From assembly GCF_011082085.1 (NCBI RefSeq), contig NZ_CP041063.1:1736001-1800000 (forward strand): 64,000 nt of DNA, written 5' to 3'. This DNA comes from Bacillus sp. Cs-700 (lineage in GTDB: Bacteria; Bacillota; Bacilli; Bacillales; Guptibacillaceae). The notes under the pieces are model-generated. The model saw only the letters and a list, made by a program, of their open reading frames with translations, did not search any database and was not told the origin of the DNA. This document shows positions 13,788-24,886 of the stretch, in pieces; the first letter of the stretch is position 1; every line of letters starts with the position of its first letter. Position numbers and translations under genes: made by a program.

Positions 13788-13975
13788 TCCAATCCCCTCC
13801 TTCTACAGTCATTTTATCACTGCTAGAAATCATGAGATATGACAAATAGTTTACACAATAACCATTTTTTTCCACGAAAATTATTTTCGTATTTACACAT
13901 TTCAAATGATTATTTTCTTCTAGAAATGGGTAAACCCGAAGTAGACTTAAAATACAAGTGCAGGAGGATTTACTC

Positions 13976-14797
13976 ATGAATCGATTACAAAATAAAACAG
14001 CCGTGATCACAGGAGCTGCGACTGGCATAGGACAAGCAACAGTCGAACTTTTCGCAAAAGAAGGTGCAACCGTATTATGTGCGGACGTGAATACGGAAGA
14101 AATGAACAAAACGGCTGATAAGCTGAATAGTGACGGGGCTAACGTAAAAACCTACCATGTTGACGTTTCAAGTGAGGATAGCGTGACAAGCTTCGCTAAC
14201 AAAGTAAAAGAAGAGTATGGCACGATCGATGTACTCTTTAATAACGCAGGAGTGGATCAAGAAGGCGGTAAAGTACACGAATATCCGGTTGAATTGTTTG
14301 ATCGTATTATTTCTGTTGATCTACGAGGTACGTTCTTAACAAGCAAATACTTACTCCCGCTAATGATGGATAATGGCGGTTCAATTATTAACACGTCATC
14401 GATGTCGGGTCGAGCGGCTGACCTTGATCGTTCAGGCTATAATGCGGCTAAAGGCGGAATTACGAACTTTACAAAAGCCATGGCAATCGACTATGCAAGA
14501 CAGGGAATTCGTGTGAACTCGCTCTCTCCTGGTACGATTGAAACGCCTTTAATCGACGAACTTGCAGGTACCAAAGAAGAAGAAATGGGTCAGAAATTTA
14601 GAGATGCCAACAAGTGGATTACACCGCTTGGAAGACTTGGACGTCCTGATGAAATGGCAAAGGTTGCTCTTTTCTTAGCATCAGACGATAGCTCATATGT
14701 AACAGGTGAAGATATTACAGCTGATGGCGGCATTATGGCTTATACTTGGCCTGGTAAAATGCTGATTGATGAGCAGTGGAAAAAAGAAACGGAATAA
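13976..14797 (+). CDS. Short-chain dehydrogenase/reductase (SDR)
   Basis: The product has 273 residues and is a classical SDR: cofactor motif TAVITGAATGIGQATVELFA (TGxxxGIG), acidic residue ADVN after beta 2 suggesting NAD(H) preference, LFNNAGVD, catalytic Ser in IINTSSMSGR, and YNAAKGG with the catalytic Tyr and Lys; VNSLSPGTIETPL and the closing ITADGGIMAYTWPG follow. The substrate is an unknown alcohol or sugar. CAGGAGG precedes the ATG. It is transcribed toward the carbohydrate cluster and separated from it by a shared terminator, so it may or may not belong functionally. The cofactor preference is an inference. Confidence 0.85.
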   Translation: MNRLQNKTAVITGAATGIGQATVELFAKEGATVLCADVNTEEMNKTADKLNSDGANVKTYHVDVSSEDSVTSFANKVKEEYGTIDVLFNNAGVDQEGGKVHEYPVELFDRIISVDLRGTFLTSKYLLPLMMDNGGSIINTSSMSGRAADLDRSGYNAAKGGITNFTKAMAIDYARQGIRVNSLSPGTIETPLIDELAGTKEEEMGQKFRDANKWITPLGRLGRPDEMAKVALFLASDDSSYVTGEDITADGGIMAYTWPGKMLIDEQWKKETE

Positions 14798-14803
14798 GTG
14801 AGC

Positions 14804-14835
14804 AAAACCCCGATGCTGGTTGCATCGGGGTTTCT
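14804..14835. terminator. Bidirectional terminator between SDR gene and carbohydrate operon
   Basis: AAAACCCCGATGC, loop TGGTT, GCATCGGGGTTTC. It ends the SDR unit on the plus strand and the sugar operon on the minus strand. Confidence 0.85.
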
Positions 14836-14841
14836 TTGTAG

Positions 14842-15810
14842 TTAAGCCCACCACATCTCCGTTGGCTGTTCAACAATTAAGACAGACTGAAGGTTCTTAA
14901 CTGCCGTTTGAAATCCTTCGTTAATCGACATGAGTGGATCTTCGTGTTCAATGCTAACGACATGGTCATAGCCATATGTGCGGAGTGCACTCATCATATG
15001 GGACCATTCTTGATTGCTATGTCCGCAGCCGACAGAACGGAACGTCCATGCGCGCGTTTTCACTTCGCCATAAGGCTGCATGTCGGTTAAGCCGTGCATA
15101 TTTACATTATCCTGATCAATATACGTATCTTTCGCATGGAAATGATGGATGGCGTTTTCTTTTCCAAGAATTTTAATGGCTGCGACTGGATCGATTCCCT
15201 GCCACCACATATGACTTGGATCGAGGTTTGCACCAACAGCATCGCACGTTAACTCACGAAGCTTGAGCATTGTGTATGGCGTATGAACCAGGAAACCTCC
15301 GTGAAGTTCAAGACCAATTTTCACATTATGATCCTTCGCGAATTGCCCCCACTCTTTCCAATAAGGCACTAGCTTCTCTTCCCATTGCCACTTCAATATA
15401 TCTGAGTACTCAGCTGGCCATGGTGTAACAGGCCAGTTTGGATTTTTCGCGTCTTCACTATCTCCGGGCGTTCCCGAGAATGTATTCACAACTGGAACGT
15501 TCATGGCCGATGCTAATTTCACAGTCTTAACGAACGTATCATGGCACTCCTTAGCAAATTTCTTATCAGGAGAAATCGGGTTTCCGTGACAGCTAAACGC
15601 ACTAATCTCAAGTCCTCTTGAATGAACTTTATCAAGATATTCCGAGCGCTTTTCTTCACTTTCGAGCAATTCATCTAGATTGCAATGCGCATCACCTGGA
15701 TAGCCCCCCGTACCAATTTCGACCGCTTTCAGTCCAGACGCTTTCGCATGATCGAGCATTTCTTCAAATGACTTATCTGAGAATAGAACGGTAAATACAC
15801 CTAGTTTCAT
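14842..15810 (-). CDS. Sugar isomerase/epimerase-like TIM-barrel protein (AP_endonuc_2 family)
   Basis: The product has 322 residues. It has the xylose-isomerase-like TIM barrel: MKLGVFTVLFSDKSFEEML, GLKAVEIGTGGYPG at strand 2, VGANLDPSHMWWQGIDP, HHFHAKDT and SIEHEDPLMS. Metal ligands expected for the family are visible as E in GLELHGG, D and H in NLDPSHM, H in HFHAKDT, and E in SIEHED, so a divalent-metal enzyme is likely. Relatives catalyse isomerisation, epimerisation, dehydration or beta-elimination on sugars, so the exact reaction is open. It is the last gene of the operon and is preceded by AAGAGGAGTGATCC. Confidence 0.75.
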   Translation of the reverse strand: MKLGVFTVLFSDKSFEEMLDHAKASGLKAVEIGTGGYPGDAHCNLDELLESEEKRSEYLDKVHSRGLEISAFSCHGNPISPDKKFAKECHDTFVKTVKLASAMNVPVVNTFSGTPGDSEDAKNPNWPVTPWPAEYSDILKWQWEEKLVPYWKEWGQFAKDHNVKIGLELHGGFLVHTPYTMLKLRELTCDAVGANLDPSHMWWQGIDPVAAIKILGKENAIHHFHAKDTYIDQDNVNMHGLTDMQPYGEVKTRAWTFRSVGCGHSNQEWSHMMSALRTYGYDHVVSIEHEDPLMSINEGFQTAVKNLQSVLIVEQPTEMWWA

Positions 15811-15831
15811 AGGATCACTCCTCTTAAGTTA

Positions 15832-16872
15832 TTAATCAAGTCGAATGCTTCTACCAGTGGAACAGCTTTCATAGATCGCTTCAATTACTTGCGAGACGCG
15901 TCTCGCTTCTTCTGATTTCACGATCGGTTGTTCGAGTCCAAGGCAGCTGTTAACGAAGTTTGCTGCTTGAGGCAATCCTGGATCTTCATCTCCAGGTGTC
16001 CACTGGCTACTCGTGTTTAATAGCATGCCGTGCTGTGCTTTATTTAATTGAAATGGAAAGACATCAATTCCTCCATCGCTTCCCGAAATACTCACCGCTT
16101 CTTTGTCCTCTGCGATGTTAGCGGACCAGGATGTTTCAAAAAGCATGGAAACATTATTATCAAATCGAATGTATGCCGTTACATGATCATCTACATTAAA
16201 TGTCTCATGATCAAACGTCCCCCACTGATTTACTTGTGAAGGCGTTTTGCTAAGACGATTATAGGTAGTGCCAGTCACTTCAACCGGTTTCGCATTCCCC
16301 ATCAACCACATGCTTAAATCGAGGAAATGACAACCGTAGTCTATTAAACTACCTCCGCCTTGAAGCTGTTTATTCGTAAACACGCCCCACCCTGGTACTT
16401 TTCGACGACGGAGAGCTTGTACTCTTGCGACCATTGGATCACCGATTTCATTCTCTTGAATGAGTTGACGTGCAGCACGCGGTTCTTTCATAAACCGATA
16501 ATGATACGCAATGGATAGTATTTTGCCCGAGGTTTTCTCAGCTGCGATCATGCGATCACATTCTTCTACAGTCATAGCCATTGGTTTCTCACAGAGAACA
16601 TGAACACCTGCAATAAGAGCCTGTTCAGCAAGGTCAGCATGAAATTTATTCGGTGTGCAAATCGTTACAGCATCTACTTCTTTAAATAGAGCTTGAACGT
16701 CATCATAGACATTCGGAATCCCAAACACGAGCGCGGCTTGCTTCGCTTTCTCATAATCGACATCATAAACACCAAACAACTCTACTTGTTCAGAGAGCTG
16801 TTGGTACGCTGGAATATGACGGGACTGAGCGATACCGCCAGACCCGATAATCCCCATACGTAATTTATTCAC
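15832..16872 (-). CDS. Gfo/Idh/MocA-family dehydrogenase (second of pair)
   Basis: The product has 346 residues. The N-terminal Rossmann fold shows MGIIGSGGIAQSRHIPAY, the family hallmark HVLCEKPMAMTVEECD (the EKP loop with the active-site Lys) near residue 95, and the C-terminal alpha/beta sheet domain begins after VARVQALRRRKVPGWG; LIDYGCHFLDLSMWL carries the conserved Asp and His of the catalytic face. It would oxidise or reduce a sugar, inositol or glycoside hydroxyl with NAD(P). GTG start with GAGGTGATCAA upstream; the gap to the previous gene is 4 bp, implying translational coupling. Paired with 16877-17905, it could run the reverse step of a two-dehydrogenase pathway. Confidence 0.85.
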   Translation of the reverse strand: MNKLRMGIIGSGGIAQSRHIPAYQQLSEQVELFGVYDVDYEKAKQAALVFGIPNVYDDVQALFKEVDAVTICTPNKFHADLAEQALIAGVHVLCEKPMAMTVEECDRMIAAEKTSGKILSIAYHYRFMKEPRAARQLIQENEIGDPMVARVQALRRRKVPGWGVFTNKQLQGGGSLIDYGCHFLDLSMWLMGNAKPVEVTGTTYNRLSKTPSQVNQWGTFDHETFNVDDHVTAYIRFDNNVSMLFETSWSANIAEDKEAVSISGSDGGIDVFPFQLNKAQHGMLLNTSSQWTPGDEDPGLPQAANFVNSCLGLEQPIVKSEEARRVSQVIEAIYESCSTGRSIRLD

Positions 16873-16876
16873 TTGA

Positions 16877-17905
16877 TCACCTCAGGTTAATGATTTGCTT
16901 CGTTTCATTTGATTCTAGTGCTGCGAGAACAACTTGTAGTGAATTCATTCCTTCCGTACCATTTACAGGAACTTCTTTATCAACTAGAATGCTGTCTACA
17001 AATTGATCGATAACCTTGGAACTCGATTGTCCTCCGCTATCATTCGTTTGAATGCCACCAAGTTCATATTTCACCACTTCACCTGTCTGATACTGCACAA
17101 CTAGTGAATTCACCGGATCGTCTTCAAGTCTTAGAATCGCTTTCTCAGCATAGATAATCGTTGAGTTATCTTCACTTGCTGTGTAAGCCCAGCTTGCAGC
17201 TAACGTTCCAATAATACCGCTCTCAGACTTTAAGATACAGACCGCATTATCATCAACCGTTGCAAACTCCTTCGCGCTTGTTTCAACAAAAGAACCGACT
17301 TCTACGATTTCTTCATTTAACAAATAGCGAATAAGGTCTGTCTTATGGACACCAAGATCTCCCATTGCTCCAATAAATGCTTTATCTTTCTCAAAGAACC
17401 AGCTCTCTTTGCCATCCACGCTCCATCCTTCAGGTCCAGGATGGCCAAAAGCAGTTCGGAAGCTATACACTTTGCCTATCTCACCGCTGGCTAATATCTC
17501 CCTTGCTTTGGCATGAGACGGGACGAATCGTTGATTGTGCGCAATCATTAACTTCTTCCCACTCGTGCTAGCCGCTTCGATCATCTCTTCAGCATCTGCC
17601 CGTGACGTTGCCATTGGTTTTTCGCAAAGCACATGCTTTCCTGCTTTTAATGCAGCAATAGAAACCGGGGCATGCAGGTAGTTTGGCGTACAAACACTTA
17701 CTGCATCAACCTCACTATTTTGAAGCAACTCCTCATAGCTTTCATAGGATTTCGCACCATAAAGGACGGCCGTTTCATCCGCTCTTGATTTAACAATGTC
17801 GCATACCGCAACAATTTTTATTTGTTTATTTGCTGCGTATTCTGGTAAATGACGGTGTTTCGCAATACTCCCACATCCGATAACACCAATTTTCAATTCA
17901 TTCAT
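16877..17905 (-). CDS. Gfo/Idh/MocA-family dehydrogenase (first of pair)
   Basis: The product has 342 residues. The cofactor motif is IGVIGCGSIAKHRHLPEY; HVLCEKPMATSRADAEEMI carries the EKP motif near residue 94; GAMGDLGVHKTDLIRYLL gives the conserved Asp and His. The C-terminal domain has the usual open beta sheet. The two dehydrogenases of this operon are clearly related but differ throughout, so they are old paralogues and not a recent duplication. Likely an NAD(P)-dependent sugar or glycoside oxidoreductase. GGAGGAGAAACC precedes the ATG. Substrate unknown. Confidence 0.85.
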   Translation of the reverse strand: MNELKIGVIGCGSIAKHRHLPEYAANKQIKIVAVCDIVKSRADETAVLYGAKSYESYEELLQNSEVDAVSVCTPNYLHAPVSIAALKAGKHVLCEKPMATSRADAEEMIEAASTSGKKLMIAHNQRFVPSHAKAREILASGEIGKVYSFRTAFGHPGPEGWSVDGKESWFFEKDKAFIGAMGDLGVHKTDLIRYLLNEEIVEVGSFVETSAKEFATVDDNAVCILKSESGIIGTLAASWAYTASEDNSTIIYAEKAILRLEDDPVNSLVVQYQTGEVVKYELGGIQTNDSGGQSSSKVIDQFVDSILVDKEVPVNGTEGMNSLQVVLAALESNETKQIINLR

Positions 17906-17929
17906 GGTTTCTCCTCCTCAATTCATTTC

Positions 17930-18649
17930 TTATTTAGACGCGATGGTTTCAAGCGGTTTTGCGTTTCCATAGACTGGCTTTGGTATCGTTGTAGGCTTAG
18001 CCCACGCAACCGCATTTTTCATGACGCGTTGAATATCTTTGTGGTAATAGGTTGGGTACGTTTCGTGCCCTGGTCTGAAATAGAAGACCTTCCCTTGACC
18101 ACGCTTATATGTACAGCCACTTCTGAAAACCTCTCCGCCTTCAAACCAGCTTACAAACACAAGCTCATCTGGTGCTGGGATATCAAAATGCTCGCCATAC
18201 ATTTCTTCTCGTTCAAGTTCAATTTTTTCCCCTAGACCTTCTGCAATCGGATGCGTGGGATCTACAATCCACATTCTTTCTTTCTCATCTGCTTCACGCC
18301 ATTTCAAATCACAGCCGGTTCCCATTAATTTCTTGAAGATTTTCGAAAAGTGACCGGAATGAAGTACGATAAGGCCCATGCCATCTAGAACTCGCTGATG
18401 AACGCGATTCACGATTTCATCTGATACTTCTTCATGGGCGATATGACCCCACCAGAGAAGAACGTCCGTGTTGTTTAGCACCTCTTCAGATAAGCCATGT
18501 TCAGGCTCGTCCAAAGTTGCTGTTTTCACTTCAAAATCCTCTTTGAGAAATTCTGCAATCGCACCGTGAATTCCGTTTGGATACACGCTTCTTACTTCTT
18601 CACTACTCTGTTCATGACGATTTTCATTCCATACAGTAACGTTAAGCAT
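17930..18649 (-). CDS. ThuA-domain protein
   Basis: The product has 239 residues and matches the ThuA (trehalose utilisation) fold, a class I glutamine amidotransferase-like flavodoxin topology: [11 protein letters not shown] at the start, [14 protein letters not shown] (about 62-75), [19 protein letters not shown] at the nucleophile-elbow position, [13 protein letters not shown], then [19 protein letters not shown]. The elbow has HSGH with no Cys, so it is not an amidotransferase. ThuA proteins co-occur with Gfo/Idh/MocA enzymes in disaccharide and glycoside oxidation loci, but a firm biochemical role is lacking. Preceded by GGAGTGGATTTGA. Confidence 0.85.
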
Positions 18650-18670
18650 TCAAATCCACTCCTATTTTAT

Positions 18671-19498
18671 CTATTCTTTTACTGAACCTGATGTTAAACC
18701 TGATACAATTCTTCTTTGGAAAATCAGTACCATAATGACAAGCGGCACCGTTACAACAACTGTCGCTGCAGAAATCTCGCCCCATGGGATCGTATACTGT
18801 CCCTGGAAAAGCGCAATTCCGACTGGTACGGTTTTAAACTTATCTGCCGTGTTAATTGTAAGAGCAAACAAGAACTCATTCCATGCGGCAATAAAGACAA
18901 GAATCGCGGTTGTGAAAATACCTGGCACGGCAAGTGGCATGATCACTTTCCAATACGTTTGCCATAATGAAGCGCCATCAATTTTCGCTGCTTCTTCCAG
19001 ATCGAACGGAATTTTGCGGAAGAACGTAACGAGAAGCCAGATCGATAATGGTAGCGTGATCGTCGTATACGGGATAATTAGCCCAAGATAACTATTTGTA
19101 AGACCTAAGTTCTTTAGAAAAATGTAAATTGGTGAAATCGTCGCCACTTGTGGAAACATCGAAACAGATAGCACCACACCTAGAATAATCGGTTTCCCTT
19201 TAAAATTCAGACGCGCGATGGAATACGCCGCAAATGAGGCAACTAGCACGGTGTAAACGGTTGTGATCGTCGCAACAACGGTACTATTCCATAGATAGCG
19301 AGGAAACGGATAGTCTACGAAAACGGATACATAGTTTTGTAGAGTAGGGTTATTCGTAAACGGATTGAACGCTTTTTCACCAAAGAGCTCTGTTAGCGGT
19401 TTAATCGAACTTGCAAGCATCCATAAGAACGGAAACATGACAACAAAGACAAACACAACGAGGAAAACGTAAAACATCGGTCCCGCTTTCTTATTCAT
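18671..19498 (-). CDS. Carbohydrate ABC transporter permease, MalG type
   Basis: The product has 275 residues and six expected membrane helices. It begins MFYVFLVVFVFVVMFPFLWMLASSIKP, standard for MalG-like CUT1 permeases. The cytoplasmic EAA loop is EEAAKIDGASLWQTYWKVIMPLAVPG (about 186-211), which docks with the ATPase. The closing GLTSGSVKE tail is also typical. It is partner of the upstream MalF-type gene and needs an ATPase encoded elsewhere, since none lies in this operon. AGGAGGGCC precedes the ATG. Confidence 0.9.
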   Translation of the reverse strand: MNKKAGPMFYVFLVVFVFVVMFPFLWMLASSIKPLTELFGEKAFNPFTNNPTLQNYVSVFVDYPFPRYLWNSTVVATITTVYTVLVASFAAYSIARLNFKGKPIILGVVLSVSMFPQVATISPIYIFLKNLGLTNSYLGLIIPYTTITLPLSIWLLVTFFRKIPFDLEEAAKIDGASLWQTYWKVIMPLAVPGIFTTAILVFIAAWNEFLFALTINTADKFKTVPVGIALFQGQYTIPWGEISAATVVVTVPLVIMVLIFQRRIVSGLTSGSVKE

Positions 19499-19534
19499 CT
19501 GGCTGGCCCTCCTTCTTCATGATAAAATACATTC

Positions 19535-20881
19535 TCATTTCTTTCCAGTTCCGTCGTTTATTAATTCAGCACCGAGTAGTTTGATAAAGATTCCAGATAT
19601 GATCGCCACACAGATGAACACTACCACTGAAATCGCTGAACCTTCACCAAAATTAGTCTGGGTAAACATCAACGTATAAGCGAGCATTGAGATTGTTTCG
19701 GTTGAGTTCGCTGGACCTCCACCAGTTAATACGTAAATTAAATCAAACACACGGAACGCATCTAGCGTTCGGAATAAGAGGGCAACAAGAAGACTAGTTT
19801 TCAAAAGTGGTAAGGTAATCGTTACGAACTGCTTCCACTTATTCGCCCCATCAATCGATGCCGCTTCATAAAGAGAAGATGGAATCGTTTGCAGACCAGC
19901 TAATAAAAGTAGCGCCATGTATGGTGTCGTTTTCCATACGTCAGCAAAGATAACAGAGAACATGGCACCAGTATCAGTTGTAAGAAGCATGGCCATGCGA
20001 TCAATTAAACCTACATCTTCAAACAGCTTCGCTACGATACCGTTTTGACCATCATATAGAAACTTCCACATGAGGGCCGCAACAGCGGTTGGAATTGCCC
20101 ATGGGATTAGGATACTTGCTCGAATCAATCCTCGCCCTAAGAAAGCTTTGTTAATAAGGAGGGCAATCGCTAGACCGAGAATGAGCTCAGCTAGAACAGA
20201 AATAAATGTAAACACAGTCGTGTTCCAAAGAGACTTCCACATCCGCTGATCAGTTAAATTTTCTTTGTAATGTTCAAATCCAATAAAGTTCGGTTCAACA
20301 ACAATTTCTGTTAGTGCGGAAGATAAACCAACAATTTTATCTCCTTTTTCCAAACTTCCATTTTCGTTGATTGCCATTAAGTCGTTGTTAATTGCTTTTA
20401 CCGAAGTCGTGAAATCTTTTGCGACATTTTCATCAATTTCTACATACTTCATGTCATCAGGAACGTTTTCAAAGCTATCAAGTTTCTCATTAATCACATC
20501 GTAATTTTCTTCTGCCTTCGGATTCTCTCGAATACTTGCATCAAGCTCTTCAAGCGTTACCTTCATTTCTGTAAGCTCTTCGCTTGAGTTTCCTTTATCA
20601 ATTTCAGAATTAATTGCTCCGACAAGGAAAGGGTAGTTTTGTAAGTAGCGATCCAGGTCAATTTGATAATCGAGATGGACTTCTGATTTTGTTGGTTCAT
20701 TAAGACGAAGGTCGAAAAGACTAAAATAAAATGACTGGAAAACTGGCCAAATAGAAATCGCTAGAATTAGAATCAGTGCTGGGGCAAGAAGTAAATAACC
20801 GACAACCGCATCGTTTTTTTTCTTCTTTTTTGGCTGTTTCTCCACTTTAATAGGCTCTTTTGGATCGATATCTGTTTGCAT
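19535..20881 (-). CDS. Carbohydrate ABC transporter permease, MalF type, with large extracytoplasmic insertion
   Basis: The product has 448 residues, about 130-150 more than usual CUT1 MalF-type permeases. After a Lys-rich N-terminus (KQPKKKKKND) and helix 1 (about 26-48), a hydrophilic insertion of about 130 residues (62-195) precedes the normal entry into the second helix block, IGFEHYKENLTDQRMWKSLWNT (200-220). The insertion is rich in Glu, Asp, Leu and Asn and could form helices; topology places it outside the cell, where the E. coli MalF P2 loop contacts the binding protein. The EAA loop is YEAASIDGANKWKQF. Preceded by AGAGGAGCG. Confidence 0.85.
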   Translation of the reverse strand: MQTDIDPKEPIKVEKQPKKKKKNDAVVGYLLLAPALILILAISIWPVFQSFYFSLFDLRLNEPTKSEVHLDYQIDLDRYLQNYPFLVGAINSEIDKGNSSEELTEMKVTLEELDASIRENPKAEENYDVINEKLDSFENVPDDMKYVEIDENVAKDFTTSVKAINNDLMAINENGSLEKGDKIVGLSSALTEIVVEPNFIGFEHYKENLTDQRMWKSLWNTTVFTFISVLAELILGLAIALLINKAFLGRGLIRASILIPWAIPTAVAALMWKFLYDGQNGIVAKLFEDVGLIDRMAMLLTTDTGAMFSVIFADVWKTTPYMALLLLAGLQTIPSSLYEAASIDGANKWKQFVTITLPLLKTSLLVALLFRTLDAFRVFDLIYVLTGGGPANSTETISMLAYTLMFTQTNFGEGSAISVVVFICVAIISGIFIKLLGAELINDGTGKK

Positions 20882-20906
20882 ACCAACGCTCCTCTCTTAA
20901 GAAAAA

Positions 20907-20944
20907 GGTGTCTTATTGTTCCGTTACATTGCTACAAGACACCG
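20907..20944. other. Hairpin in the binding protein-permease gap
   Basis: GGTGTCTT pairs with AAGACACC across a loop of about 20 bases. It lacks a T run and lies between the solute-binding protein gene and the MalF-type gene. Confidence 0.4.
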
Positions 20945-20999
20945 CTTTTGATAATTCAAATTTTCTTATAGCCCTCTTCTCAAAAATATGTAGGAAAGA

Positions 21000-21026
21000 C
21001 ATTAGCCTTCGTGTGGAAGGCTAATG
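21000..21026 (-). terminator. Intra-operon hairpin after the solute-binding protein gene
   Basis: CATTAGCCTT, 7-base loop, AAGGCTAATG lies 11 bp beyond the binding-protein stop. On the minus strand only GTCTTTCC follows, so it is a weak terminator or an mRNA-stabilising end. Such hairpins commonly raise binding-protein expression over the permeases. Confidence 0.55.
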
Positions 21027-21036
21027 AACTTTTCTA

Positions 21037-22353
21037 TTATTTTTCTAACTTTTCATTCATTTCTTTTTCCATCGCAGCTGCTGCTTCTTCAGGAGTTTCT
21101 TCTCCTGCAATGGCTTTAGAAATGTGGATTTGAATGATTTCAGAGATTTCAGGGTAGTTTGGAGCTACAGGACGGGAAACAGCTGCTTCAAGTGCTGTTT
21201 GGAATCCTTCTTCCCCAAAGAATGGGTTTGCTTCGATAATTTCTTCATCTTCAAAAAGAGCTGGTAGCGTTGGAGCATGTGAGCCTTCAATCGCATCGAT
21301 CTTCTGTCCTTCTTCACCAGTCATAAACTTCAAGAACTCCCACGCTTCTTGAGGATGTTCAGAGAAATTATTGATGGCTGCCATCCAACCGCCTAGCGCT
21401 GATGCTGATCCTGCATCACCTTCAGGAAGTGGAGCGACTTCAACATTCCCTACAATTTTAGACTGTTCTTCATCATTAGCTAGAGAGTACTGATATGGCC
21501 AGTTACGAATAAACGGAGACTGTCCTTCAATAAAAGCGGTGTGAGATTCTACTTCAGTGAACGTATTGATGTTACCTGGAACAAAATCAGAGTTTGCGAT
21601 TTCAACCATTTTTGAAATACCTTTGATTGCTTCAGGGCTATTGATGACAACTTCTCCATTCTCATCAATAAATGCACCACCGTAAGAACCGACAAATTCA
21701 ACTGCATTTGTCACGAGACCTTCATATTGCTTCGCTTGCATAAGGTAACCAAACTTCGTACCGTCTTCACCTTTTAGCTCAGAAGCTTGTGTCATTAAGT
21801 CATCCCATGTTTTTGGAGCTTCAGAAACCATGTCCGAGCGGTAGAAAAGCATTCCAGTATCAATGAATTTTGGCATTGCCCACTGCTTACCATTAAATGT
21901 TGCTGCCGTAACCGGTCCCTGATTATAGTCATCCATGTTGATGCCGTCTTTTTCAATAAAGCGGTCTAGAGGAAGAACATACCCTGCTTGAGCAAATTCG
22001 GCAGGCCAGATCACATCGATATCAAACACATCGATTTCAGATGATTCTGCGTTCAGCATTGTAACATATGCGTCATGCTGTGCACCCGTATCTGTTGGCA
22101 TTTCACGGAACTCAATTTCAATATTCGGGTTTTGCTTTTCGAATTCCTCAACCATTACATCGGTTGCACCTGTTGCATCTTTACCTCGTGCATAAACGAG
22201 CGTTACTTTTTCTTCATCACCGGAACTCGCCTTTTCATCGCCAGAATTGTTGCTAGAATTACTTGAAGAATTATTTGAAGAACTACATGCTGAAAGAACA
22301 AGGATAAGGGCCAAAACGATAAAAAGTAGTTTACTATTCTTCACTATTCGCAT
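21037..22353 (-). CDS. Extracellular sugar-binding lipoprotein (family 1 solute-binding protein)
   Basis: The product has 438 residues. The signal is LLFIVLALILVLSACSSSNNS, with lipobox LSAC, so the Cys near residue 23 is lipidated and the protein is held on the outer face of the membrane. A Ser/Asn-rich linker follows. The body is a family 1 (MalE/UgpB-type) binding protein: VTLVYARGKDATGATDVMVEEFEK, VDVFDIDVIWPAEFAQAGYVLPL, and ALGGWMAAINNFSEHPQEAWEFLKFM. It delivers a sugar or oligosaccharide to the two permeases. The ATG is preceded by AAGGGGGATTTCG. The promoter region upstream carries two ATCGAT palindromic boxes. Confidence 0.9.
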   Translation of the reverse strand: MRIVKNSKLLFIVLALILVLSACSSSNNSSSNSSNNSGDEKASSGDEEKVTLVYARGKDATGATDVMVEEFEKQNPNIEIEFREMPTDTGAQHDAYVTMLNAESSEIDVFDIDVIWPAEFAQAGYVLPLDRFIEKDGINMDDYNQGPVTAATFNGKQWAMPKFIDTGMLFYRSDMVSEAPKTWDDLMTQASELKGEDGTKFGYLMQAKQYEGLVTNAVEFVGSYGGAFIDENGEVVINSPEAIKGISKMVEIANSDFVPGNINTFTEVESHTAFIEGQSPFIRNWPYQYSLANDEEQSKIVGNVEVAPLPEGDAGSASALGGWMAAINNFSEHPQEAWEFLKFMTGEEGQKIDAIEGSHAPTLPALFEDEEIIEANPFFGEEGFQTALEAAVSRPVAPNYPEISEIIQIHISKAIAGEETPEEAAAAMEKEMNEKLEK

Positions 22354-22379
22354 AATACGAAATCCCCCTTAAGTTTTGT

Positions 22380-22412
22380 TGAAATCGATACCAATTTTGA
22401 AATCGATTTCAA
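22380..22412. promoter_or_regulatory. Operator pair upstream of the sugar operon (LacI- or CcpA-type boxes)
   Basis: TTGAAATCGATTTCAA at 22397-22412 is a perfect 16-bp palindrome. TGAAATCGATACCA at 22380-22393 is an imperfect second box. The core of the first, TGAAATCGATTTCA, fits the catabolite-responsive element consensus TGWNANCGNTNWCA. On the minus strand TTGAAA from the palindrome and TATCGA 16 bp later could be the -35 and -10. They lie 27-59 bp before the binding-protein ATG. Confidence 0.65.
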
Positions 22413-22440
22413 TAAAGATAGCGCTTACAACATTTGCGAG

Positions 22441-23430
22441 TTAAGTAGACTTACGAATCACGAGTGATAACGGTAACTCCATCACACTCTGACTAACACG
22501 ATCGCGCTTTCCTTTTAAACAATCCATAAAAATAGTCATCGCACGACCGCCAATTTCAGCACCAGGTTGATAAATTGTCGTTAGCTCTGGTTCAATCATA
22601 CTTGCAATCGGCTGATCATCAAATCCGAGAATCGCCATATCTCCCGGAACATCCAGCCCATTTCGCTTCGCTTCTTTCACCATTGCAGCTGCTACTTCGT
22701 CTCCACCAGTAAAAATGGCCGTTGGTCGTTCTGTTAACGTTAGAATTTTGTTAAATGTTTTTACACCGTCTTCCATCGTATATGTATCATGGAAGATCCA
22801 TTCTGATTTCACTTCAAGACCAGCTTCATCCACTGCTTGAAAGAATCCTTTGCGGCGATCATTGGATAATCCACTTGTTGATCCCATACAGTAAGCGAGT
22901 TTTTGATGACCTCGTTCAATCAGATGCTTTGTCCCTAAATAACTCCCCTGAACTTGATTCAATCGAACCATCGGTACTGTCGCATCGTGATGATACTCGT
23001 TGCATAGAATAATCGGTCCATGATCGGTATATGGCTGAATTTGCTCCCAATCATTTTCTATTGAAGTGAAGATCACACCATCAACCTGCTTCGTTTGCAA
23101 GAGATTGAGGAATTCAAGTTCCTTCTTCTTACTTGATTTTGTCTGACAAATAATAAGCTGAAAGCCATTTTCCTCTGCAACTTTCTCAATGCCATCTAAT
23201 ATCAACGTGAAGAAGGGATTGGTTAACCTTGGGATCAAAACCGCTACAAGATTTGTTCTACGATTGCGTAGATTTCGAGCAGACGTGTTTGGAAAATACC
23301 CGAGTTCCTTCATCGCCTCATGAACTAATTGACGCTTGTCTTTCGATACGTGCGGATAATCATTAATAACACGTGACACAGTCGCTCGTGATAATCCGGT
23401 ATAGTCTGCGACGTCAGCAATTGTTGCCAT
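22441..23430 (-). CDS. LacI-family transcriptional regulator of the sugar operon
   Basis: The product has 329 residues. The helix-turn-helix is TIADVADYTGLSRATVSRV at residues 3-21, with the hinge helix NTSARNLRNRRTNLVAVLIP. The remainder is the periplasmic-binding-like effector domain (LIICQTKSSKKKELEFLNLL, VDGVIF, GFDDQPIASMIEPELTTI). The start was moved 26 codons inward to the ATG preceded by AGAGGAGG, which places the HTH correctly. It would bind the ATCGAT palindromes that lie both upstream of itself and upstream of the binding-protein gene, and release them on binding the pathway sugar. Autoregulation is an inference from those sites. Confidence 0.9.
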   Translation of the reverse strand: MATIADVADYTGLSRATVSRVINDYPHVSKDKRQLVHEAMKELGYFPNTSARNLRNRRTNLVAVLIPRLTNPFFTLILDGIEKVAEENGFQLIICQTKSSKKKELEFLNLLQTKQVDGVIFTSIENDWEQIQPYTDHGPIILCNEYHHDATVPMVRLNQVQGSYLGTKHLIERGHQKLAYCMGSTSGLSNDRRKGFFQAVDEAGLEVKSEWIFHDTYTMEDGVKTFNKILTLTERPTAIFTGGDEVAAAMVKEAKRNGLDVPGDMAILGFDDQPIASMIEPELTTIYQPGAEIGGRAMTIFMDCLKGKRDRVSQSVMELPLSLVIRKST

Positions 23431-23470
23431 GTTACATCCTCCTCTGAAAGTACAAAAGACCCTCCCTTCT

Positions 23471-23502
23471 TTTGTAATCGATTTCATGAAATCGATTACA
23501 AA
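23471..23502. promoter_or_regulatory. Perfect 32-bp palindrome upstream of the lacI-type gene
   Basis: The left half TTTGTAATCGATTTCA is followed directly by its exact reverse complement. Each half contains an ATCGAT core, so two 14-bp boxes (TGTAATCGATTTCA and TGAAATCGATTACA) lie side by side, both fitting the cre consensus. It sits 41 bp before the regulator start codon, where an autoregulatory operator is expected. Confidence 0.7.
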
Positions 23503-23559
23503 CATCATAACGCAAGTTCACAGAATGTTCAACTTTATTTTCGGAATATTTTTACGCTT

Positions 23560-24312
23560 TTATTTTTTTAGCTGAATTTCACGTAAGTATTTGTAACTCT
23601 GTGTCACACTTTCAATCGGATCGAAGTCACAGTCATCTTGTTCAACAACCCACCACTGCACACCGCATGCTTGTCCCTGCTCAATCACTTCTTCAATTGC
23701 GATGTTTCCTGTACCAAGGATAACCGTTGCTTCTCTTTCATCATCTGACCGATCCTTCAAATGGATGATTGGTGTTCTTCCTGCAAATTTTTGCATCCAT
23801 TCAACAGGATCATGCCCAACTTGATTGAGCCAATAAATATCAAATTCAGCCTGGATAGCATCATGTGCATCTAAAATGCGATATAGGTCACTACCTTCAA
23901 TGCTACGACCAAGTTCAAAATCATGATGATGATAGGCAATTTCCATTCCCTGTTTACTACAAACGAGCGCTGCATATTTCATGATCTCTGCTACATTCTT
24001 ATAGTCTTCAGGACTTCTTCTTTCAGGAGGTAACCATGGGCAAACAATCCTCGTATTCCCTAACACTTTTTGTTCCTCAATAACCGCTTCTAACTCATTT
24101 TCAATTCGTTCAATTGGCACATGGTGTGCGATGACAGACAGACCAAGCTCATCTAACTTGTTCTTCACTTCTTGCGGTTTGTGACCATGAAGTCCAGCAA
24201 GCTCAACACCTTCATAACCGATGCCTTCTACCCTTACTAACGTTTCAAAAAAATCTTTTTCACATTCGTTTCGTAGCGTGTAAAGTTGTAATCCAACGCC
24301 AATTTCATTCAT
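23560..24312 (-). CDS. Sugar isomerase/epimerase-like TIM-barrel protein (second AP_endonuc_2 member)
   Basis: The product has 250 residues, shorter than the other barrel in the cluster. IGVGLQLYTLRNECEKDFFETL starts the barrel; GYEGVELAGLHGHKPQEVKN, EIAYHHHDFELGR, QAEFDIYWLNQVGHDP, PIIHLKDRSDDE and WWVVEQDDCDFDPIES follow. Glu, Asp and His at strand ends match the metal-binding sites of the IolE/IolI and xylose isomerase-like family. Reaction unknown: isomerisation, dehydration or cleavage of an oxidised sugar are all possible. It precedes the regulator gene in the same direction and is preceded by AGGAGTGGC. Confidence 0.75.
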   Translation of the reverse strand: MNEIGVGLQLYTLRNECEKDFFETLVRVEGIGYEGVELAGLHGHKPQEVKNKLDELGLSVIAHHVPIERIENELEAVIEEQKVLGNTRIVCPWLPPERRSPEDYKNVAEIMKYAALVCSKQGMEIAYHHHDFELGRSIEGSDLYRILDAHDAIQAEFDIYWLNQVGHDPVEWMQKFAGRTPIIHLKDRSDDEREATVILGTGNIAIEEVIEQGQACGVQWWVVEQDDCDFDPIESVTQSYKYLREIQLKK

Positions 24313-24384
24313 TTTATGCCACTCCTTTTTTTTATAAAGCTCTTTTCGTAGATATTGTTGGTTTTAGATAAGTGGTTAATTTCC

Positions 24385-24495
24385 GCTCCTACCCGCTTTC
24401 CGCGGGGCGGGCGGTGAGCCTCCTCGTCGCTTTTTGCGGGGTCTCACCTGTCCCGCTAGTCCCGCAGGAGTCGAGCATCCTTCCGCTACAATTAG
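24385..24495. repeat. GC-rich intergenic repeat of the bacillar Pro/Gly-like hairpin type
   Basis: A GC-rich block (CCGCTTTCCGCGGGGCGGGC through AGTCCCGCAGGAGTCGAGC) in an AT-rich gap, with GGTGAG/CTCACC and GCGGG/CCCGC pairings. I have seen close variants of this string scattered between genes in many Bacillaceae genomes, so it is probably a mobile or REP-like element. It has no coding potential. The rest of the 24313-24945 gap is AT-rich; nothing else was recognised there except the erpA terminator. Confidence 0.65.
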
Positions 24496-24886
24496 CGAAG
24501 TGTGGTTTTTTATTCAATAATTAATTCAAAAGCAACAATCTATTAGAAAAGAGCCTTTTATAAAGACTAAATCAGAAGTTTAACCCCATCGTTATATTAA
24601 AAAACAACTGGTTCACTTTCTCAAAAACCTTTAGAGATAAAACTTCTCCATCATTCACTAATTTTCGATAAAACGACGGAAAACCCTTTTTTGTGACAAA
24701 AAACAATTTCTGTTATCTTTCTTGAAAATTCAATTACTCACTCAATTCTTGACCGAGTAAATGCTAGACCTTTTGTGATCCATATGTCCCGTGACTCACA
24801 TTGTTTACATCTCGTCTCTTCCCGTGGTGGTAAAGAAGACAACATTTCAGCTGTTTTCATTAAAAGATTAATTAAAATATATCATA

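Follow-up and report, generated by a model that had tools for sequence, protein, structure and literature searches.

A nine-gene operon of Bacillus sp. Cs-700 that combines ThuA with candidate enzymes of 3-keto-glycoside breakdown

Cleavage of sugar bonds by way of 3-keto intermediates is already known from a few bacteria. The rhizobial thuEFGKAB operon reportedly serves the assimilation of trehalose, maltitol and sucrose isomers via 3-keto derivatives (Ampomah 2013, cited in PMC4765114). The levoglucosan pathway of Bacillus smithii, encoded by lgdA-B1-B2-C, follows a four-step logic with LgdB1 as C-O lyase and LgdB2 as a hydratase that is reported to have been assigned experimentally (PMC7676230). 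Agrobacterium uses the eliminase AtOGE (8bvk) and the hydratase AtHYD (8ro4) in its OGE/HYD glucoside pathway, and dgpABC genes serve in C-glycoside degradation. Here we analyze a nine-gene operon in a 64,000-nucleotide stretch (the window; NZ_CP041063.1, positions 1,736,001 to 1,800,000) of Bacillus sp. Cs-700, a Pseudalkalibacillus genome consisting of one contig of 4.30 Mb. Judging from its genes, the operon probably imports an O-glucoside or a glucose disaccharide and, rather than hydrolyzing it in the ordinary way, breaks it down through oxidation, elimination, hydration and reduction. The combination of this probable chemistry with ThuA at the core recurs commonly among related bacteria.

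The operon occupies positions 14842-24312 of the window and reads, on the minus strand throughout, SPIa, lacI, SBP (solute-binding protein), PermF, PermG, ThuA, DH2, DH1 and SPIb (Table 1), with neighbouring genes spaced 4-36 bp apart from PermF onward. An earlier note, made from the letters alone, had placed nine genes on one strand, and all open reading frames (ORFs) were recovered where it had put them. Its family assignments agree with Pfam, which matched two AP_endonuc_2 barrels (SPIa and SPIb), two GFO_IDH_MocA dehydrogenases (DH1 and DH2), ThuA, two BPD_transp_1 permeases, SBP_bac_1 and LacI. As that note had also claimed, no glycoside hydrolase, phosphorylase or sugar kinase family was matched by Pfam among the nine proteins, nor was an ATP-binding cassette (ABC) ATPase, and two probes for glycoside hydrolase families GH13 and GH3 found no match in the window. 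The identical gene order is kept at 75-98% identity in three named relatives (L001-L003; L numbers denote fetched stretches), which argues against a chance arrangement. The nearest named relative fetched, Pseudalkalibacillus spartinae (L001), shows the same nine genes and order at 93-98% identity.

Both TIM barrels resemble enzymes of 3-keto-glycoside breakdown. The profile and the structure model of SPIb match AtHYD, a solved 2-hydroxy-3-keto-glucal hydratase. SPIb is also 51-55% identical over its full length to the LgdB2-position protein in seven of ten levoglucosan-type stretches from Bacilli (L091-L100), this position being assigned from location and size and not from the B. smithii sequence. 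In five of the seven stretches that hold it, the SPIb homologue directly adjoins the LgdC-position dehydrogenase. Together, sequence and model make SPIb a candidate 2-hydroxy-3-keto-glucal hydratase of the AtHYD/LgdB2 type. SPIa matches AtOGE, a 3-keto-O-glucoside beta-eliminase, at E 1.2e-29 with 73 of 229 aligned residues identical. Its residues H128, H130, D158, H184 and E224, invariant in 17 aligned rows, correspond to AtOGE H132, H134, D163, H189 and E233, of which H134 is described as the catalytic base and the other four as Mn ligands (PMC10628242). SPIa thus retains the catalytic histidine of AtOGE together with every metal ligand named for it, making it a candidate AtOGE-type eliminase of 3-keto-beta-glucosides.

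The dehydrogenases appear to belong to the same chemical context. The closest solved relatives of DH1, matched near full length among 92 solved sequences, are DgpA1 (9m3d, E 2.4e-70) and DgpA (7xr9, E 6.9e-62); DH2, with 97 solved sequences matched, is DgpA/GFOR-like. Alignments of each window sequence with those scoring above 450 bits show K96/D178/H182 of DH1 to be invariant in 81 of 81 sequences and K96/D183/H187 of DH2 in 102 of 102, and we take these residues to be the catalytic triads, as known for the family. Gfo/Idh/MocA and AP_endonuc_2 proteins are likewise found in iol operons, and inositol catabolism, with the barrels as isomerases, was the competing outcome named beforehand in the earlier note. 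The IolG and IolE profiles do score, although weakly: IolG gives 114.9 and 170.2 bits for the two dehydrogenases against an NCBIfam equivalog cut-off of 355, and IolE gives 36.4 and 52.4 bits for the two barrels against 290. With all four enzymes so far below the cut-offs and their closest solved relatives being DgpA, AtOGE, SCO6571 or AtHYD, we reject catabolism of inositol or an inositol-like compound, which retains only a minimal probability. Epimerization of 3-keto sugars of the E. coli YcjRS type, with the barrels as 3-keto epimerases, appears improbable.

A strict levoglucosan or other anhydrosugar pathway would employ identical enzyme classes and an LgdB2-like protein such as SPIb. However, the levoglucosan dehydrogenase (LGDH) profile NF052479 scores 107.1 bits for DH1 and 145.9 bits for DH2 against a cut-off of 650, a genome search for LGDH at E <= 1e-150 found nothing, and SPIa is merely 23% identical (46 bits) to the LgdB1-position protein, too distant to be classed as LgdB1-type. 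The importer is thu-like and lacks an ATPase gene of its own, in contrast to the reported B. smithii cluster (PMC7676230). Levoglucosan as sole substrate is rejected because LGDH and LgdB1 were not found in these comparisons, and an anhydrosugar pathway in general is very improbable. Of the "glycoside or anhydrosugar" proposed in the earlier note, the glycoside is favoured by the thu-like importer and ThuA, and the anhydrosugar is disfavoured; its oxidize-eliminate-hydrate-reduce reading is supported by homology, fold and active-site residues.

The thu operons of S. meliloti (L196) and Agrobacterium (L199) share with the window the order SBP, permease, permease, (ATPase), ThuA and Gfo/Idh/MocA dehydrogenase. 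Identity is 63% between window ThuA and its S. meliloti counterpart (rhizobial range 61-63%), 44-47% between PermG and ThuG, 44-45% between PermF and ThuF (58-60% of the length aligned) and 31-33% between SBP and ThuE. PermG is the best of 14 genome matches to S. meliloti ThuG (239 versus 121 bits) and SBP the best of five to ThuE (182 versus 80 bits). Gene order and sequence similarity in the importer and ThuA thus suggest that the substrate is a glycoside or disaccharide of the thu type. PermF is 448 amino acids long with a long extra stretch ahead of its BPD domain, compared with a median of 313 in the main cluster of cassette-near relatives; the long form recurs in the relatives in L114 and L115. 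In contrast to the rhizobial operons, the window operon contains no ATPase gene, its two dehydrogenases are each merely 25-30% identical to ThuB, its two barrels have no annotated counterpart in either rhizobial stretch and its LacI regulator is not orthologous to ThuR.

In the proposed scheme, whose reactions, metals, substrate, division of roles between DH1 and DH2 and ThuA step we infer from the genes, the LacI-controlled operon would bring an O-glucoside or glucose disaccharide into the cell by means of a thu-type ABC importer with an ATPase borrowed from elsewhere. One Gfo/Idh/MocA dehydrogenase, most likely DH1, would then use NAD+ to oxidize the glucosyl unit at C3, and the resulting 3-keto group would acidify H2 and allow a lyase to expel the aglycone. 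This lyase would be Mn-dependent SPIa for beta-linked substrates and possibly ThuA for alpha-linked ones. SPIb would hydrate the resulting 2-hydroxy-3-keto-D-glucal to 3-keto-D-glucose, which DH2 would reduce to glucose with NADH, rendering the cycle redox-neutral. A single enzyme might carry out both redox steps, because DgpA is reported to accept 3-oxo-glucose as oxidant (PMC11239390). Similar to the Agrobacterium OGE/HYD pathway, the window encodes one barrel matching AtOGE and one matching AtHYD. The first oxidation in that pathway is carried out by GlycDH, a flavin enzyme of the GMC type, and GMC genes were found beside OGE relatives; the window operon, by contrast, has solely NAD-type Gfo/Idh/MocA oxidoreductases, plus ThuA. 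With dgpABC it shares a dehydrogenase nearest to DgpA and a barrel, SPIb, with the residue pattern of C-glycoside eliminases, but no gene for a second, DgpB-like subunit was seen by Pfam among the nine.

To investigate how the genes travel together, we examined one set of stretches chosen by ThuA, the best 80 of 512 confirmed loci (L001-L080), and one chosen by SPIb. In the ThuA set, with gene presence defined by single-linkage clusters at >=45% identity, DH2 is present in 64 of 80, SPIb in 62, DH1 in 56 and the window-type importer in seven. A separate count finds SPIa in 18 of the 80. The gene following ThuA is DH2 in 61 and DH1 in four of 77 called ThuA ORFs. ThuA, DH2, DH1 and SPIb consequently form a common cassette among relatives, combined with varied importers. 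SPIb relatives, close and distant (E <= 1e-40), occur in 277 of 397 genomes of the window's order. The SPIb set consists of 93 stretches, 73 of the 75 places in one set and 20 picked from the highest-ranking places of this order-wide search; L164 and L175 were left out for want of a called SPIb ORF scoring over 200 bits. Within 8 kb of SPIb in the remaining 91, ORF calls place ThuA in 34 (five also with SPIa), SPIa alone in five, LgdB1 in six and none of these in 46; tblastn adds one ThuA missed by the ORF caller (L145), giving 35 with ThuA and 45 with none. Mutual exclusion of ThuA and SPIa or LgdB1 as proof of a lyase role was not borne out, as only 11 of the 57 ThuA-less neighbourhoods contain SPIa or LgdB1. 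All 36 stretches with SPIb at >=600 bits come from genomes with ThuA (32 within 8 kb, four elsewhere), compared with two of 21 genomes for SPIb at 500-600 bits (Fisher p 3e-13, which ignores genome kinship and is a strong lead rather than a probability).

The 500-600-bit stretches (L119-L139) appear to represent a separate pathway type: 19 of 21 have no ThuA, SPIa or LgdB1 nearby, and 19 of 21 have an adjacent LacI-type gene on the opposite strand. Judged by eye, L119, L123 and L139 continue after the SPIb relative with genes for a ribose-type importer and a DH2-like protein. A compact cassette in the order dehydrogenase, SPIa, ThuA, SPIb, dehydrogenase lies behind an AraC-type regulator gene in Listeria (L197, 5442-10041), its SPIb being 73% and its ThuA 67% identical to the window's; the record is labelled a plasmid, yet carries ribonucleotide reductase genes. 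A GH13 alpha-glucosidase gene is found directly downstream of thuA in L028 and L042 and of the cassette in L046. As a clue to the substrate this enzyme is weak, occurring in 12 of 80 ThuA-chosen and nine of 93 SPIb-chosen stretches and not in the window.

Loci in which the cassette is split suggest how its functions divide. Partners were counted if they reached >=60% identity and lay no more than 7 kb away on the same strand. By this measure, 30 loci have ThuA but no SPIb, with DH1 alone in six cases, DH2 alone or with SPIa in three (one of them, L059, cut by a contig end), both dehydrogenases in three, only SPIa in one and none in 17. Of these 30, nine (L208-L216) were added once the pattern had become apparent. 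By profile scores a DH1 relative is also present in L213, L215 and L216, while L145, L158 and L159 hold a more distant SPIb near ThuA. Conversely, 24 SPIb loci without ThuA contain DH2 in six cases (three with SPIa), DH1 in none and neither above the cut-offs in 18. The association of DH2 with SPIb and of DH1 with ThuA gives a two-sided Fisher p of 0.028, or 0.009 with L213, L215 and L216 included, kinship being ignored in both values. The simplest reading, by analogy with LgdB2 and LgdC, is a lower module of hydratase and reductase formed by SPIb and DH2; the upper module would then comprise a 3-dehydrogenase and a lyase, DH1 and ThuA with or without SPIa, similar to LgdA and LgdB1. Since SPIb stays with DH2 and ThuA is more often with DH1, ThuA may hold the place of the C-O lyase LgdB1.

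We therefore put forward, very tentatively and as a rather unlikely proposal, that ThuA cleaves the glycosidic bond of 3-keto-alpha-glucosides, either as a lyase yielding 2-hydroxy-3-keto-glucal or as a hydrolase. AtOGE is reported to cleave 3'-keto-cellobiose and not 3'-keto-maltose, and the sugars reported for the thu operon are alpha-glucosides, which suggests a division of labour with ThuA acting on alpha-linked and SPIa on beta-linked substrates. In Paenibacillus JDR-2 a thuAB-like pair is reported among the genes raised on maltose, and its authors suggested conversion to 3-keto-maltose (PMC4765114). An alpha-3-ketoglucosidase of Agrobacterium was reported in 1970 (title cited in PMC9007349). 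No reaction assigned to ThuA alone was found in the open-access papers searched. The best fold matches of ThuA are unassigned ThuA-like structures, followed mostly by amidotransferase-type domains, and no function follows from them; among solved structures its profile matched only 1t0b, followed by a chance-level match at E 0.73. In L040, L069 and L210 thuA adjoins a diacylglycerol-kinase-like gene (labelled by eye) without pathway partners nearby.

Several observations weigh against the proposed scheme. SPIa accompanies ThuA in a minority of the loci of the ThuA set, 17 of the 30 SPIb-less ThuA loci lack partners (12 once the distant relatives in L145, L158, L159, L215 and L216 are counted), and the window LacI is not orthologous to ThuR. 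S. meliloti ThuB, whose best matches in the window's genome are weak, scores DH2 (93 bits, 32%, partial length) above DH1 (78 bits, 31%), which fits poorly with DH1 as the oxidizer. The original thu work reportedly credits thuA and thuB jointly with formation of the keto-disaccharide, which would put ThuA at the oxidation step. In the SPIa alignment Lys50 replaces AtOGE Asn52, a residue said to activate the catalytic histidine (PMC10628242). Finally, 45-46 of 91 SPIb neighbourhoods hold no ThuA, SPIa or LgdB1, and elimination at low affinity is also reported for LgdB2 (PMC7676230), so that SPIb alone may suffice.

This last point leads to an alternative in which SPIb is a bifunctional eliminase/hydratase, sufficient together with DH2, while DH1, ThuA and SPIa widen the substrate range or salvage side products. 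LgdB2 by itself reportedly converted 3-keto-levoglucosan further (PMC7676230), inspection by eye finds in SPIb the pattern E-x-H, D, H-x-K, E-x-E described for the alpha subunit of C-glycoside eliminase (PMC8563793), and in L114 and L115 DH2 and SPIb alone accompany a window-type importer (SBP 52%). Yet the genomes of L114 and L115 are among those of the 36 high-scoring SPIb loci that all carry ThuA, and the solved relative AtHYD is reported to be inactive on 3-keto-phlorizin. We regard bifunctional SPIb as a tenable account with a somewhat less than even chance. In a further alternative ThuA is no lyase and helps to form or handle the 3-keto sugar, as a dehydrogenase partner or as an enzyme that isomerizes or repairs 3-keto sugars. 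Such a role is consistent with a Gfo/Idh/MocA gene adjoining thuA in both S. meliloti and Agrobacterium, with DH2 or DH1 as the neighbour of 65 of the 77 ThuA ORFs and with stand-alone ThuA copies, but the Gfo/Idh/MocA enzymes DgpA and LgdA are reported to oxidize C3 without ThuA (PMC11239390, PMC7676230). A helper role is a serious possibility without being the expected outcome.

Regulation of the operon appears to be local. The LacI family assignment in the earlier note stands; the ORF as listed (22441-23508) is too long, and we moved the start to 23430, since the longer ORF encloses an operator. By eye, the new start is marked by a ribosome-site-like stretch and a LacI-type protein start. 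The perfect palindrome ahead of lacI, with 16-nucleotide arms that are 100% complementary, has two copies of TGWAATCGATTWCA at its core. The exact motif occurs at three sites in the 4.3 Mb genome, each reading on both strands and all within the operon, so LacI most likely acts as a local repressor that regulates itself. Allowing up to one mismatch raises the genome-wide count to 20 sites, and allowing up to two gives seven in the window against a shuffle mean of 1.88. Similar motifs (slightly relaxed pattern) lie ahead of lacI or SBP in seven of seven loci with the window-type importer. A promoter-like TTGAAC-17-TATGAT (23532-23504) is located directly upstream of the double operator, but promoter-like matches as a class are fewer than the shuffle mean (17 versus 22.2). 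At 29% identity and only eighth of 12 genome matches, the window LacI was rejected as a ThuR orthologue.

Table 1. Features of the operon, in window coordinates.
Feature	Position	Strand	Basis
Terminator-like hairpin between operon end and convergent SDR gene	14805..14833	+ in scan listing	Hairpin scan
SPIb, candidate AtHYD/LgdB2-type hydratase, metal-site TIM barrel, 322 aa	14842..15810	-	Homology, profile, model
DH1, candidate DgpA-like Gfo/Idh/MocA glycoside 3-dehydrogenase, 346 aa	15832..16872	-	Solved-structure matches, catalytic residues
DH2, Gfo/Idh/MocA dehydrogenase, candidate 3-ketoglucose reductase, 342 aa	16877..17905	-	DgpA/GFOR-like; stays with SPIb
ThuA, GATase1-like fold, 239 aa	17930..18649	-	Pfam ThuA
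PermG, ABC permease, ThuG-like	18671..19498	-	Identity to rhizobial ThuG
PermF, ABC permease, ThuF-like, 448 aa	19535..20881	-	Identity to ThuF; BPD_transp_1 at 233-436
Hairpin between SBP and PermF genes, 11 pairs	21000..21026		Hairpin scan
SBP, solute-binding protein, ThuE-like	21037..22353	-	Identity to ThuE
Putative LacI operator TGAAATCGATTTCA ahead of SBP gene	22398..22411		Exact motif
LacI-family repressor, corrected start, 329 aa	22441..23430	-	Pfam LacI and Peripla_BP
Double operator ahead of lacI, perfect 32-nt palindrome	23471..23502		Motif copies 23473-23486, 23487-23500
SPIa, candidate AtOGE-type O-glycoside beta-eliminase, metal-site TIM barrel, 250 aa	23560..24312	-	AtOGE match

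The hairpin between the SBP and PermF genes is a possible processing or attenuation site; terminator-like matches as a class exceed the shuffle mean (12 versus 7.9). Beyond the last gene of the operon lies a convergent SDR dehydrogenase gene (13958-14797; NF006366, 494 bits), placed outside the operon by its strand, with copies 89-97% identical at the same place in L001-L003. Directly upstream of SPIa is a MITE-like (miniature inverted-repeat transposable element) repeat (24329-24564) with imperfect inverted ends of 37 nucleotides, 78% complementary, whose 162-nucleotide core recurs elsewhere in the genome twice at nearly full length (90 and 94%) and several times in part. The repeat shows no sign of a role as a regulatory element of the operon. 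SPIa, upstream of lacI and behind this repeat, may be transcribed separately from its own promoter.

The cassette gives ThuA, a common protein, defined partner enzymes and a specific candidate reaction. If that reaction is correct, ThuA would be a glycoside-cleaving enzyme of the GATase1 fold, unrelated to the TIM-barrel eliminases, thuA would be a candidate gene for the Agrobacterium alpha-3-ketoglucosidase, and cassettes with both ThuA and SPIa would process alpha- and beta-linked substrates side by side. Because SPIb relatives are so widespread in the order, 3-keto sugar chemistry may be a routine form of glycoside breakdown in these bacteria that annotation based on glycoside hydrolases has missed.

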